NCBI GenBank assembly: GCA_947627675.1 | Contig: CANQWY010000009.1 | Coordinates: forward strand, 1 to 37,202 | Origin: an uncultured Bacilli bacterium | GTDB lineage: Bacteria; Bacillota_I; Bacilli_A; RF39; UBA660 | DNA length: 37,202 bases | Direction of reading: 5' to 3' | Shown here: positions 1,579-17,141 of the stretch, in pieces | How positions within the stretch are numbered: the first letter of the stretch is position 1 | Layout: each line of letters begins with the position of its first letter | Translations under genes and position numbers: made by a program | Notes under the pieces: generated by a model | Told to the model about the DNA's origin: nothing | The model's database searches: none | Seen by the model: only the letters and a program-made list of their open reading frames with translations

Positions 1579-3226
1579 ATGAAAAAAAGAAAAGATATAT
1601 TGTTAGTAATACCCCTAGTACTAACAATAGTTCTAATGGGGGGGGGTTACTTACGCCAAATATAGTAAGAGTATAGAAACAAAAAAGGAAATAACAATAA
1701 AAACAGGGACAAGATATATAGGAATATATGGAGTAAATGGAGCAAATAAAGAAAATATCGAATTAAATAAAGCGTATTCATTCACAATAGAAAACAGAGG
1801 AGCAGAAGATGCAAGTTATAGACTATATATCGAAGGTATAGAAAATAGTAGTATAAGTTATAGTTACACAAAAAGCGGAATAGCAACAACAGGGACATTA
1901 GCAAATAAAACAATAGATGAAAGTAATTTAAAAGTAGAAGAAAAGATAACTATAACAATAAAATTTACAGGGACAGGAAATTATAAAGGAAAACTAAAAG
2001 TAGAAACAAAAGACTATATGAATGAACCAAATACTCCAGTGTTAGTAGGAGATATGATCCCAGTAACATATAATGGAACAAACTGGGTAAAAGCAGATAC
2101 AGTAAATAATAACTGGTATGATTATAATAGAGGAGTCTGGGCTAATGCAGTAACTATAAAAGATTCATCTAAGAGAGCAGAATATAAAAATGCCCAAGCA
2201 GGAACAACTATAGATTTAAGTTATGTAAACTTAATGTTAGTATGGATACCAAGATACTCATATACATTAAGACAATCATATGGATATCAAATAGAAGGAG
2301 GATCAACACCAAGCCAAGCAACCCCCGGAGCATTTGATATCAAATTTGTAGATACAAACACAACCGAAAAAGGAACAGGAAAATACACCGGAACAACGCC
2401 GAGTAATTATTATACACCATCGTCATTTTGTTGGGGAAATACATGTGATACGACAAGAAGTGGAAATACAGAATTATCCGGAATCTGGATAAGTAAGTTT
2501 GAAATTACTGGAGATATTGAAAATATAACATCAATCCCTAATCAAGCCAGTTTAACAAATAAAAATATTTCATCACTCTTTAATGCTATAAAGAATCAAA
2601 TAAATGGAAGTAGTGGAACAACAAACTATGGCTTAAGTGGAACGAGTTATGATACTCACATGATAAAGAATACAGAATGGGGAGCCATGGCATACTTAAG
2701 TCAAAGTAAATATGGAAAATATGGGAATTCAAAATATACAAATGCCAATAAAGAAATATATCAAAATAAATCAAATGAATATAAAACAGGCTGTAGTTTT
2801 GGAATACCAAGTAATTCAGACACAAATTACGGATGCCAGTATACTTATGATATAGAGATAAATGGAACCGGAGCCAGTACCACTGGAACAATATATGGAA
2901 TATATGATACATCAGGAGGGGCTTTTGAAAGAGTAATGGGAAATTATAATGATGAAAAGGGACAATCAGGTTTTGAAGAAATGCCAGATGCTAAATATTA
3001 TAATAAATATACAAGTAATACAAGCATCAAAGGAGATGCAATAAATGTAGATGGAACAAATGGCTTTTATGGAGATTTTACAATATTTGTAGTTTCAGCC
3101 AGCCCTTGGTTCTATCGTGGAGCTAGATATAACTATGGTGTTGTCGCGGGTATCTTCGGCTTCGCCAGCACAGTTGGTGCTGCTGATCCCAGCTATGGTA
3201 CGCGTCTAGTTCTATCAACTTGGTAG
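1579..3226 (+). CDS. Putative DGR target surface protein (SipW-type signal, FGE/C-type-lectin-like C-terminus); currently frameshifted at a 9-G tract
   Basis: RBS-like agaagga then ATG 1579: MKKRKDILLVIPLVLTIVLMGG..., stop in the ninth-G frame. With 8 G the frame runs VTYAKYSKSIETKKEITIKTGT... without stops into the 2018..3226 ORF (548 aa). C-terminal part has GTIYGIYDTSGGAFERVMGNY and ASPWFYRGARYNYGVVAGIFGF...GTRLVLSTW. Confidence 0.8.
1638..1646 (+). repeat. Homopolymeric G9 tract within signal-peptide codons (candidate phase-variation switch)
   Basis: ttctaat-ggggggggg-ttacttacgcc. ATG 1579 is in frame 1 and the downstream ORF in frame 2; one fewer G joins them. No other G run of this length was noticed in the window. 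Confidence 0.85.
3104..3226 (+). other. Candidate DGR variable region VR1
   Basis: 123 nt; by manual count 62 G/C (~50%) and 21 A (~17%), in a gene that is otherwise A-rich and GC-poor. Encodes PWFYRGARYNYGVVAGIFGFASTVGAADPSYGTRLVLSTW, matching the classical DGR variable-protein C-terminal pattern. Confidence 0.7.
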
Positions 3227-3249
3227 TTGTATATAAGAAGATATAAAAA

Positions 3250-3290
3250 AGGGGCTGTCATAAGTGACAGCTCTTTTACAACTTTTTTAT
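3250..3290. terminator. Bidirectional intrinsic terminator between the first DGR target and the collagen-like gene
   Basis: aaaaaa-ggGGCTGTCA-taag-TGACAGCtc-tttt: ~9-bp stem with one G-U, 4-nt loop, A run upstream and T run downstream. Confidence 0.75.
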
Positions 3291-4069
3291 TAATCTAATA
3301 GTTTAACTGAAAGTGAAGCCTGATTAATACTACCTCCATCAGCTGATGTTGTAGAAATTAATACAAGTGAAAGAACAGCTCCATCATATAATTTAACGAT
3401 AGTACTTTTTGCTAAAGTTCCTGTACCTCCTGTAGTTAAGTTTAGTGTTCCTGTTGTTCCTTCTACCAATTGATTTTTATCTTTAACAGCGACTACTAGA
3501 TTTCCAGCACTTGTTAGAGTGGCAGAAATACTATAACTAACTTCGTAAATTCCTCCCTCAATTAATGTAATTGTATTGTCATTTTGAGTTACATCGTAAT
3601 CTTCCATAAAATTTTTTAATTCAACAGTGGTAGGAGTGTCTGGTAGTTGCTGAAAAGCTTGAGTTGTTGTTGAATAAAGTCCACCATAAGCGTTTAGTCC
3701 GGCAGCCGGTCCTGTAGGCCCAGTAGGTCCCGTTGGTCCTTCCACTCCTTGTATTCCAGCTATTCCCTGTGGTCCCTGTTCGCCGGTAGGTCCTGTAGGT
3801 CCAGTAGGACCAACTAGTCCGCTTGGAATAACGAAATCAAAAATAGCATTTGTACTGGTTCCTGTATTAGTAACAATAGCTTCTGAGCCAGGTGCTCCTG
3901 TTGTAATTGTTCCAATAGTAATAGTTGCTGTCGCTGGTCCAGTAGGTCCAGTAGGACCCGTAGCACCTGTTGGTCCTATGCTTCCAGTAGGTCCTGCTAT
4001 GAAACAATAATTACAATCCGGTTTACATTTTTTATTTTGTTGGAAGTTATTAAAATTTCGTGAGTTCAT
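3290..4069 (-). CDS. Collagen-like (Gly-X-Y) BclA-type exosporium/surface protein
   Basis: Repeats [20 protein letters not shown] and [36 protein letters not shown]-terminal BclA/C1q-like domain; RBS aaaggag upstream on the minus strand. Confidence 0.85.
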
Positions 4070-15210: not shown

Positions 15211-15273
15211 TTAAATATAAGATATGAGTATAATAATAAAAAAAGTACTCATAATAAGTAGTAAGAGGTGTTT

Positions 15274-17141
15274 ATGATGAATAAAGAAAAAAATAAAAAA
15301 GTAGCATTAACGATATTAGGAATAATAATATTAGTAGTAATGGTATTAGGAATAAGTTATGCGGCATTTAATTACACAGGAAAAGGAGAAGTAGAAAATG
15401 CCATAACAACAGGAACAATAACAATGGTATATACAGAAGGAGATAATGGAATAACTCTAAGTAATGCCATACCAATGGAAGATGAAGTAGGAAAGCAACT
15501 AAAAGATGATAACCAAATGTTTGATTTCACAGTTCAAATAAATATTGTAGGAAATACAACAATAAGTTATGAAGTAACTGCTGAAAAACAAACAGATAGT
15601 ACATTACAAAATAATGAAGTAAGGATCTATTTAGAAAGATCAACAGATAAAGCAAATTATAATGCAGTATCAAATGAAGTAACAGGATATGTCCCATTAG
15701 AAGAAGCAGATAGTTTTGGAGCGAAAGTAGGGGAAATGGTGTTAGATACAGGAAGTACAAGTACAACAGCAACATACTATTATCGCTTAAGAATGTGGGT
15801 AAGCAAGAGTTATGAATTAACAGAGGAATCAAAGCACTTTACCATAAAAGTAAACGTCTATGGAAGTGATGGAGTAAAAGTAACATCAAGATATTTAAAA
15901 GAATTTGGAAAAGACACATCAAATGCCAATAAACCAGAATTAGTAGGAGATATGATTCCAGTAGTATGGGATGAAAAAAATAAAACATGGGTAAAATCCC
16001 CAACTAATCAAAATAATTATTATAATTACGAAAATCAAAATTGGGCCAATGCCGTAACGATAAAAGAAACAGATAAAAGAGCAGAATATAAAAGCGCACC
16101 AATAGGAACAGAAGTGAAGATGACTGATATAAACACAATGTGGGTCTGGATCCCAAGATATTCATATGCTTTAAAAGGAGATTATGGAACACAAATAGGA
16201 GAAACTACTCCAAATCAAAATACCCCAGGAGCTTTTGATATTAAGTTTGTGAATACAAGTACAACTGATACTGGAGCCGGCAAATATACAGTAGATAATC
16301 CAGGTGGATATTATTATACACCATCAAGTTTTTGTTGGGGCAACACATGTGATGATGAAGGTCAAAGAAGTAATGAGAATACAGAATTATCTGGAATCTG
16401 GATAAGTAAATTTGAGATGACTGGTTCATTAACTGAAATAACATCAAAACCAAACGAAACGAGCATAACAAATCAAACAAATCAATCATTCTTTAATGCC
16501 ATTCAAACACAAATGAATAATACAAATGGTTCTACAAATTATGGTTTTAATGGAAATAATTATGATACGCATATGATAAAGAACACAGAATGGGGAGCGA
16601 TGGCCTATTTAAGTCAAAGTAAATACGGCAAGTATGGTAATAAAAATTATACAGGGGTTAATAAAGAGATTTATATAAATGATTATAGTGGATTACAAAC
16701 AGGATGTAGTAAAGGAGCGCCAGGAAGTGGAACTAGCGGTAATTCAAACAAATCAGATACATGTGAACATCAATATATGGAACCGGAGCCAGTACAACCG
16801 GGACGATATATGGAATCTACGATACTGTGGGAGGAGCCTGGGAACGTGTTATGGGAAATTACAATGATGAAAAGGGACAATCAGGATTTGAACAAATGCC
16901 CGAAAGAAAATATTATAATAAATATACAAATGAAACGGGAATCAAAGGCGATGCCACAAAAGCAGAAGGAACGAATGGATTTTATGAAGATTATCAAGAA
17001 TTTATAACTTCTTCTGCCCCTTGGTTTACCTGTGGCGGTCTCTATTCCGATGGTGTTCGCGCTGGTGTTTTCCGCTTCGGTAACGGCAATGGTTCTGCTA
17101 ACATCAACTCTGGTTCGCGCCTTGTTTTAGCTACCTGGTAG
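15274..17141 (+). pseudogene. Second putative DGR target surface protein; TasA/SipW-like N-terminus + FGE/C-type-lectin-like C-terminus, interrupted by a single-base frameshift near 16771-16780
   Basis: ORFs 15268..17007 and 16827..17141 are the two halves. Paralog 1 has (at)aaatggaaccgg where this copy has caatatatggaaccgg; adding one A gives a 622-aa ORF with NGTGASTTGTIYGIYDTVGGAWERVMGNYNDEKGQ...PWFTCGGLYSDGVRAGVFRF...SRLVLATW. Confidence 0.75.
17019..17141 (+). other. Candidate DGR variable region VR2
   Basis: 123 nt; by manual count 64 G/C (~52%) and 15 A (~12%); encodes PWFTCGGLYSDGVRAGVFRFGNGNGSANINSGSRLVLATW; same length and scaffold as VR1 with many substituted residues between scaffold positions. 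Confidence 0.7.

Follow-up and report, generated by a model that had tools for sequence, protein, structure and literature searches.

DGRs have their prototype in the element of phage BPP-1, which comprises a template repeat (TR), a reverse transcriptase (RT), Avd, adenine mutagenesis and a variable region (VR) at the 3' end of a binding-protein gene. Elements with several targets are already known. In Treponema denticola one TR/RT is accompanied by 2-7 target genes, some of them remote (PMC4891356), the remote targets of cyanobacterial DGRs, 76 in 21 genomes, are for the most part signalling proteins of the cytosol (PMC7517822), and the DGRs of Thiohalocapsa PB-PSB1 form nine loci with 15 targets (PMC10907252). 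Moreover, atypical elements with non-A substitution were reported by one survey to have far larger numbers of TR-VR pairs (PMC6642488). As pointed out by Roux et al. (PMC8144416), surveys on short contigs seek VRs next to the RT; the number of DGRs with many remote targets is therefore probably underestimated.

The stretch of DNA analysed here in its full length of 37,202 nucleotides (the window) is contig C9 of the MAG of an uncultured Bacilli bacterium (1.57 Mb, 94 contigs, 94% complete). A segment of this window, VR1, is very likely one of the remote variable regions of a cellular DGR, its gene belonging to a very large surface-protein family which, according to the same reading, is both diversified by the DGR and subject to phase variation; none of current activity, switching or function has been demonstrated. 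The system resembles that of T. denticola in its single TR and RT, in the combination of a cis target with dispersed paralogous targets, in the presence of some VRs with “excessive mutations” and in the surface nature of the encoded proteins (PMC4891356). It differs by 41 VR-bearing ends compared to 2-7 targets and by a MutS-domain-I protein plus Avd in contrast to an HRDC accessory; furthermore, a poly-G switch, as inferred for the present genome, is not mentioned in the sections of that paper bearing on it. With the cyanobacterial DGRs (PMC7517822) the system shares the expansion of paralogs, remnants of TR-VR homology and the location of remote VRs at the 3' end of CLec genes, the CLec-like nature being inferred here from the sequence pattern, whereas about 40 secreted-type targets lie within one genome here. 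As in Thiohalocapsa PB-PSB1 (PMC10907252) there is evidence of trans-diversification by an RT/TR located elsewhere, yet one cassette and one surface-protein family contrast with several DGR loci and conflict-system sensors. TR, RT, Avd, adenine mutagenesis and the VR position at the 3' end of the target are common to the BPP-1 element, which, unlike the present one, is not cellular and lacks both the many remote targets and the extra MutS-domain-I protein. Finally, in the pili of the gut commensal Bifidobacterium breve an intragenic G tract (9-12 G) likewise joins or breaks the ORF of a surface structure (PMC9187656), albeit at two loci without a DGR, compared to tens of tracts on DGR target genes here. 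No tie between DGR targets and poly-G tracts was found in the open-access literature searched, most subscription papers being outside this search. One small genome seems to join two routes to surface variety, namely DGR hypermutation and a poly-G on/off switch, which suggests that DGR targets may double as contingency loci and would unite two diversity mechanisms usually studied apart.

Table 1. Coordinates of the features within the window.
Feature	Position	Strand	Remarks
Full VR1 target gene	1579..3226	+	signal peptide MKKRKDILLVIPLVLTIVLMGG plus 402+ aa surface-type protein with VR1 at its end; frame interrupted in the assembly by the poly-G tract
Poly-G tract (9 G)	1638..1646	+	within the signal-peptide coding region; out of frame; 8 or 11 G would join the frame; phase switch inferred
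Mechanically called ORF	2018..3226	+	begins at an internal ATG, not at the gene start
VR1, DGR variable region	3101..3223	+	register set by TR C26:17236-17358(-); agrees with it at 75/92 non-A positions and differs at 19/31 adenines
13-bp hairpin with T run	3248..3277	+	just 3' of VR1; terminator; possibly a VR-proximal hairpin as in other DGR targets (inferred)
Second target gene	15268..17141	+	two ORFs, frameshift before about 16827
VR2, variable region of the second target	17016..17138	+	agrees with the TR at 79/92 non-A positions and differs at 19/31 adenines; p=7.3e-6 for codons 1-35

The cassette on contig C26 and its relation to VR1

The final 41 codons (stop included) of the ORF at 2018-3226, which correspond to positions 3104-3226, encode PWFYRGARYNYGVVAGIFGFASTVGAADPSYGTRLVLSTW followed by the stop. 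Adenine makes up 21/123 bases of this segment and 42.6% of the remainder of the ORF. A is the third base in 6/41 of its codons versus 172/361 in the gene body (p=4e-5), and C in 12/41 versus 37/361 (p=0.0015). The original prediction had described this segment as a candidate DGR variable region, poor in A (21/123) within an A-rich gene and with codons ending mostly in C or T. All of this held, the A content exactly, and the register was corrected to that given in Table 1. It had also anticipated an RT and a template of about 100-140 bp elsewhere, with mismatches concentrated at TR adenines; RT and template were both found on contig C26, and the adenine bias is strong in VR1 although some non-A bases differ as well (see below).

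The only RVT_1 match in the whole genome is located at C26:15265-16302(-). Profiles and motifs, without a tree, identify it as a DGR-type RT (RVT_1 1.2e-19; PHROG reverse transcriptase 2.1e-108; motifs GNYTSQ and YMDD). Upstream of it, on the same strand, lies an Avd gene, whose product matches bAvd PF22296 above cut-off (3.5e-20) and the PHROG “Avd protein of DGR” (1.2e-26), while scoring 75.4 bits against NCBIfam DivGenRetAVD (cut-off 80). A 123-amino-acid protein with MutS domain I (PF01624, 5.6e-10) is encoded upstream of the RT on the same strand, too. MutS-like accessory proteins occur in published DGR surveys. We would like to note that this protein (L001:2657-3028 (-)) consists of the mismatch-recognition domain alone and that the Glu of the usual FYE motif is apparently replaced by Leu (GIFYLF). 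The non-coding TR of 123 bp (C26:17236-17358(-)) is situated between the accessory genes and the adjacent cis target (C26:17674-18888(-)), giving the ordinary DGR layout of target, TR, accessory genes and RT. The VR of the cis target deviates from the TR at 20 positions, all of which are adenines (20/31 A, 0/92 others). Hence, with RT, Avd, a non-coding TR by the RT and a 3' VR with mismatches at TR adenines, the genome meets the criteria for a DGR. A search for a second TR in the genome, with the TR itself as query, returned nothing except coding VRs and chance matches of very short length. Viral contigs scanned for RT and target gave no relatives, leaving a prophage origin without support.

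Scanning the TR across the whole window reveals 75/92 non-A matches at 3101 and 79/92 at 17016, against a plus-strand mean of 18.5 (sd 4.2) and next best values of 36 (plus strand) and 40 (minus strand). Some homology of VR1 to the TR reaches upstream to about 3095. Over the full length of VR1, 19/31 adenines and 17/92 other bases differ from the TR. When the last six codons, in which remote VRs consistently depart from the TR, are omitted, the numbers amount to 18/30 adenines and 10/75 non-A bases (codons 1-35; p=3.2e-6). This departure would be expected if the 3' end escapes overwriting. For VR2 the corresponding full-length values are 19/31 and 13/92. The single RT/TR of the genome and the adenine-biased mismatch are thus established. 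In contrast, a currently active target should show few or no non-A mismatches to the present TR, which VR1 does not fulfil (17/92, or 10/75 without the 3' tail). While the original prediction had left open whether VR1 is active or a relic, it turns out to be a drifted copy, and comparison with the 0/92 of the cis target indicates that the DGR left a recent-looking product there while VR1 was not recently rewritten. Almost certainly VR1 was written from the C26 TR or an ancestor of it and has drifted since; as its non-adenine bases have changed by about 13-18%, its last rewriting lies well in the past.

The frameshift in the second target of the window is located outside any G tract and cuts VR2 off from the rest of the gene, pointing to either a pseudogene or an assembly error.

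A graded family of VR-like 3' ends

A search of the genome with the VR1 protein gave 44 matches, from which 41 VR-like ends could be aligned. Across all of them, 45-74% (about 60%) of the adenine sites diverge from the TR, and saturation at these sites extends to VRs that have kept nearly all of their other bases. Divergence at the other bases forms a smooth gradient from 0 to 52% (non-A identity 100% down to 48%). The adenine excess is significant at p<0.05/41 in 19 of the 41 VRs, VR1 among them, and at p<0.01 in 26, while the worst dozen is indistinguishable from ordinary homologs. Each remote VR of this genome carries at least seven non-A mismatches to the TR; present activity in trans is therefore not shown.

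With falling non-A identity to the TR, third-base A in the VR rises (Spearman -0.75, p=1e-8). At the top of the series 0% of the VR codons end in A and 49% in C, and these shares drift towards those of the bodies (A 38-50%, C 6-14%). The gene bodies, by contrast, lie at about the same distance from the cis target whatever the state of the VR (mostly 70-77% identity, fourfold sites mostly 45-64%). We interpret these observations as copying from one template and subsequent decay, at different times in different genes. The third-base C/T pattern of the template has been transferred into remote VRs. At its 13 AAY codons, where the choice between C and T is not seen by protein selection, the best VRs match the TR in 10-13 of 13 third bases, VR1 does so at 10/11 C/T positions, and all VRs pooled reach 320/461. 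Yet, the best of 10,000 permutations of the TR pattern equals the observed 320, albeit under a weak null as few patterns exist and T dominates. Since the agreement does not exceed every permutation, it is to be regarded as supporting evidence only.

Alternatively, the 41 ends could merely have been inherited by duplication of one ancestral target, the cis target being the sole real DGR target and the remote ones never having been rewritten afterwards. In favour of this, the targets are paralogous over their whole length (62-75% amino acid identity), there is a modest correlation between non-A and body identity (rho 0.47), and a nearly identical stretch of about 680 bp shared by C79 and C52b indicates that duplication or gene conversion does move VRs. 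However, whether a VR ranks among the best or the worst, its gene body is equally diverged from the cis target (C49 0.77, C12 0.73, C13 0.70), despite a twofold difference in VR non-A identity. In addition, fourfold-site identity among the top 11 is higher in the VR (0.74) than in the body (0.63), with the reverse in the others (for VR1 alone, 8/12 versus 40/75 does not decide the matter), and the saturation of adenine sites where other VR bases are nearly intact also argues against mere inheritance. A VR with near-zero non-A mismatches at the end of a strongly diverged body and far from the cassette is seen in a relative (G302), but not in the genome studied here. While the cis VR of G302 differs from its TR by 16 adenine mismatches and one other, a VR on its contig C35, which yielded no match to the TR, shows 17 adenine mismatches and one non-adenine mismatch. 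Rewriting in trans is the simplest reading of the latter, although retrohoming was not observed. Altogether, we consider inheritance by duplication alone unlikely.

The paralogs L025 (C79) and L054 (C52, C52b) are nearly identical over the mentioned 680 bp, including most of the VR, and diverge beyond. Gene conversion, recent duplication or strain mixture are all conceivable causes, and some VRs have probably also spread by gene conversion.

According to the rewriting-and-decay reading, the C26 cassette (target, TR, MutS-I-like protein, Avd and RT) would make adenine-mutated cDNA from its one TR, and this cDNA would rewrite the 3' end of the cis target. Formerly, it would have rewritten many dispersed paralogs as well, including both targets of the window; such retrohoming in trans is inferred and was not seen happening. 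The remote VRs would then decay at non-adenine bases, VR1 having been rewritten long ago. Since the adenine sites saturate whereas the remaining bases go on decaying, every VR may serve as a rough clock of its last rewriting, and with a family of 41 ends both the frequency of DGR action in trans and a preferential renewal of cis targets become testable.

Poly-G tracts in the leaders of target genes

In the frame of the VR1 target a TAA directly precedes the poly-G tract, so that the 529-codon VR1 frame lacks its own start at this place. The gene does not begin at 2018, as in the mechanically called ORF; its leader starts at 1579 and is split off by the frame-breaking tract. The tract, the true start and the family size had been missed in the original prediction. 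The genome contains 38 G runs of at least eight. After duplicates of one place had been removed by hand, 27 tracts were assigned to leaders of the VR1-gene type (class A), 26 with 9 or 10 G out of frame and one with 8 G in frame (1/27, p=3e-4 against 1/3). Eight further tracts reside in a second leader type (MKKINNCSN-GGG-YFRRTVNKK), five with 9 G in frame and three with 10 out of frame, and the cis target has none. The skew towards out-of-frame lengths may possibly come from slippage bias rather than from selection. A frame-setting homopolymer at a conserved place, the criterion for a slipped-strand phase-variable locus, is present in the 27 class A leaders, in which only 8 G is in frame.

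The broken frame at 1638-1646, together with the non-A divergence of VR1, might suggest that VR1 is a dead relic, i.e. a pseudogene with a random frameshift at a G run and a decayed VR. This appears very unlikely, as the tract occupies one site in 27 genes with lengths of 8, 9 and 10, and 400-550 downstream codons are open in almost all of them. Pseudogenes would gather scattered stops, yet the VR1 ORF is intact for 529 codons.

A further objection is that the G runs are sequencing or assembly artefacts, or are bypassed by transcriptional slippage or ribosomal frameshifting, and do not act as switches. The tract lengths are MAG consensus, in which homopolymers are error-prone, Illumina reads stop at G runs, several contigs of this genome end at or near a tract, and the work on B. 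breve shows that annotated lengths can be wrong (PMC9187656). On the other hand, the tracts recur at a single site in dozens of genes of one family. Furthermore, runs of 9-12 G are common in 10 of the 11 related genomes searched. In one of these (G301), 33/38 G tracts are followed downstream, at a distance of 0.4-1.6 kb, by a target homolog in the same orientation. In G301 and other relatives the run, outside the coding frame, is often placed between a -35 TTGACA and a -10 TATAAT-like hexamer, 13/28 examples scoring at least 9/12 compared to 126/1200 control positions (10.5%). Frameshifting would make no sense at such a position, whereas an effect on promoter spacing would. It is these two placements, coding and promoter, on one gene family which favour phase variation. 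The artefact explanation thus remains possible, while phase variation is the likelier reading, albeit an inferred one as no length change was observed. Under the phase-variation reading, slipped-strand change in the leader tract would gate target expression, and the VR1 gene is in the OFF frame in this assembly; switching and expression are both inferred, without read-level data.

A bolder reading, which we put forward with more doubt than conviction, is combinatorial antigenic variation. Poly-G slippage would choose a few of about 40 paralogous surface proteins (1/27 class A leaders being in frame), one DGR would slowly rewrite their binding ends in trans, and silent genes would constitute an archive of past VRs; this pairing would be common to related gut Bacilli, with the G tract in the promoter there.

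Target proteins and related genomes

The leaders of the target family are SipW-type signal peptides, and the C-terminal region shows the FGE/C-lectin-like pattern which the original prediction had recognised as a C-type-lectin/FGE-like scaffold. Pfam FGE-sulfatase matches only weakly in 2/14 family members (best 7e-4) and not in the VR1 protein, a PDB search with the family profile returns merely a marginal 5vf4 (E=0.58), and one with a single sequence returns no match. An AlphaFold model of the VR1 protein from a 7-row alignment was discarded as unusable (mean pLDDT 37). From signal peptides and pattern we infer that the targets are likely secreted or surface-anchored proteins with a C-terminal ligand-binding domain, the binding itself being inferred. 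The neighbour at 1-1488 of the window possesses the leader module of the targets (ISYAAF signal peptide) along with an unrelated C-terminus and no VR, indicating that leader modules are common to different C-terminal domains. Convergent with the VR1 gene, a collagen-like (GPTGPT) protein with a BclA C-terminal-like domain is encoded at 3290-4069 (-).

Relatives of the RT with 56-63% identity are present in 17 Bacilli MAGs (one Candidatus Onthousia; the others uncultured Bacilli, Erysipelotrichaceae or Tenericutes), representing gut Bacilli known almost only from MAGs. An automatic TR/VR search revealed a clear pair in four of them (L131, L132, L134 and L135); the repeats it returned for L119, L120, L122, L123 and L125 were rejected as many local repeats and not TR/VR pairs. 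Homologs of the target, not all of which need be DGR targets, number 72 in G301 and 35 in G304, and at least one occurs in 106/294 family genomes. In G302, the genome of L135, several TR-like copies are found (C15, C23 and C53), including an exact 77-bp piece of the TR at C15:29727-29803.
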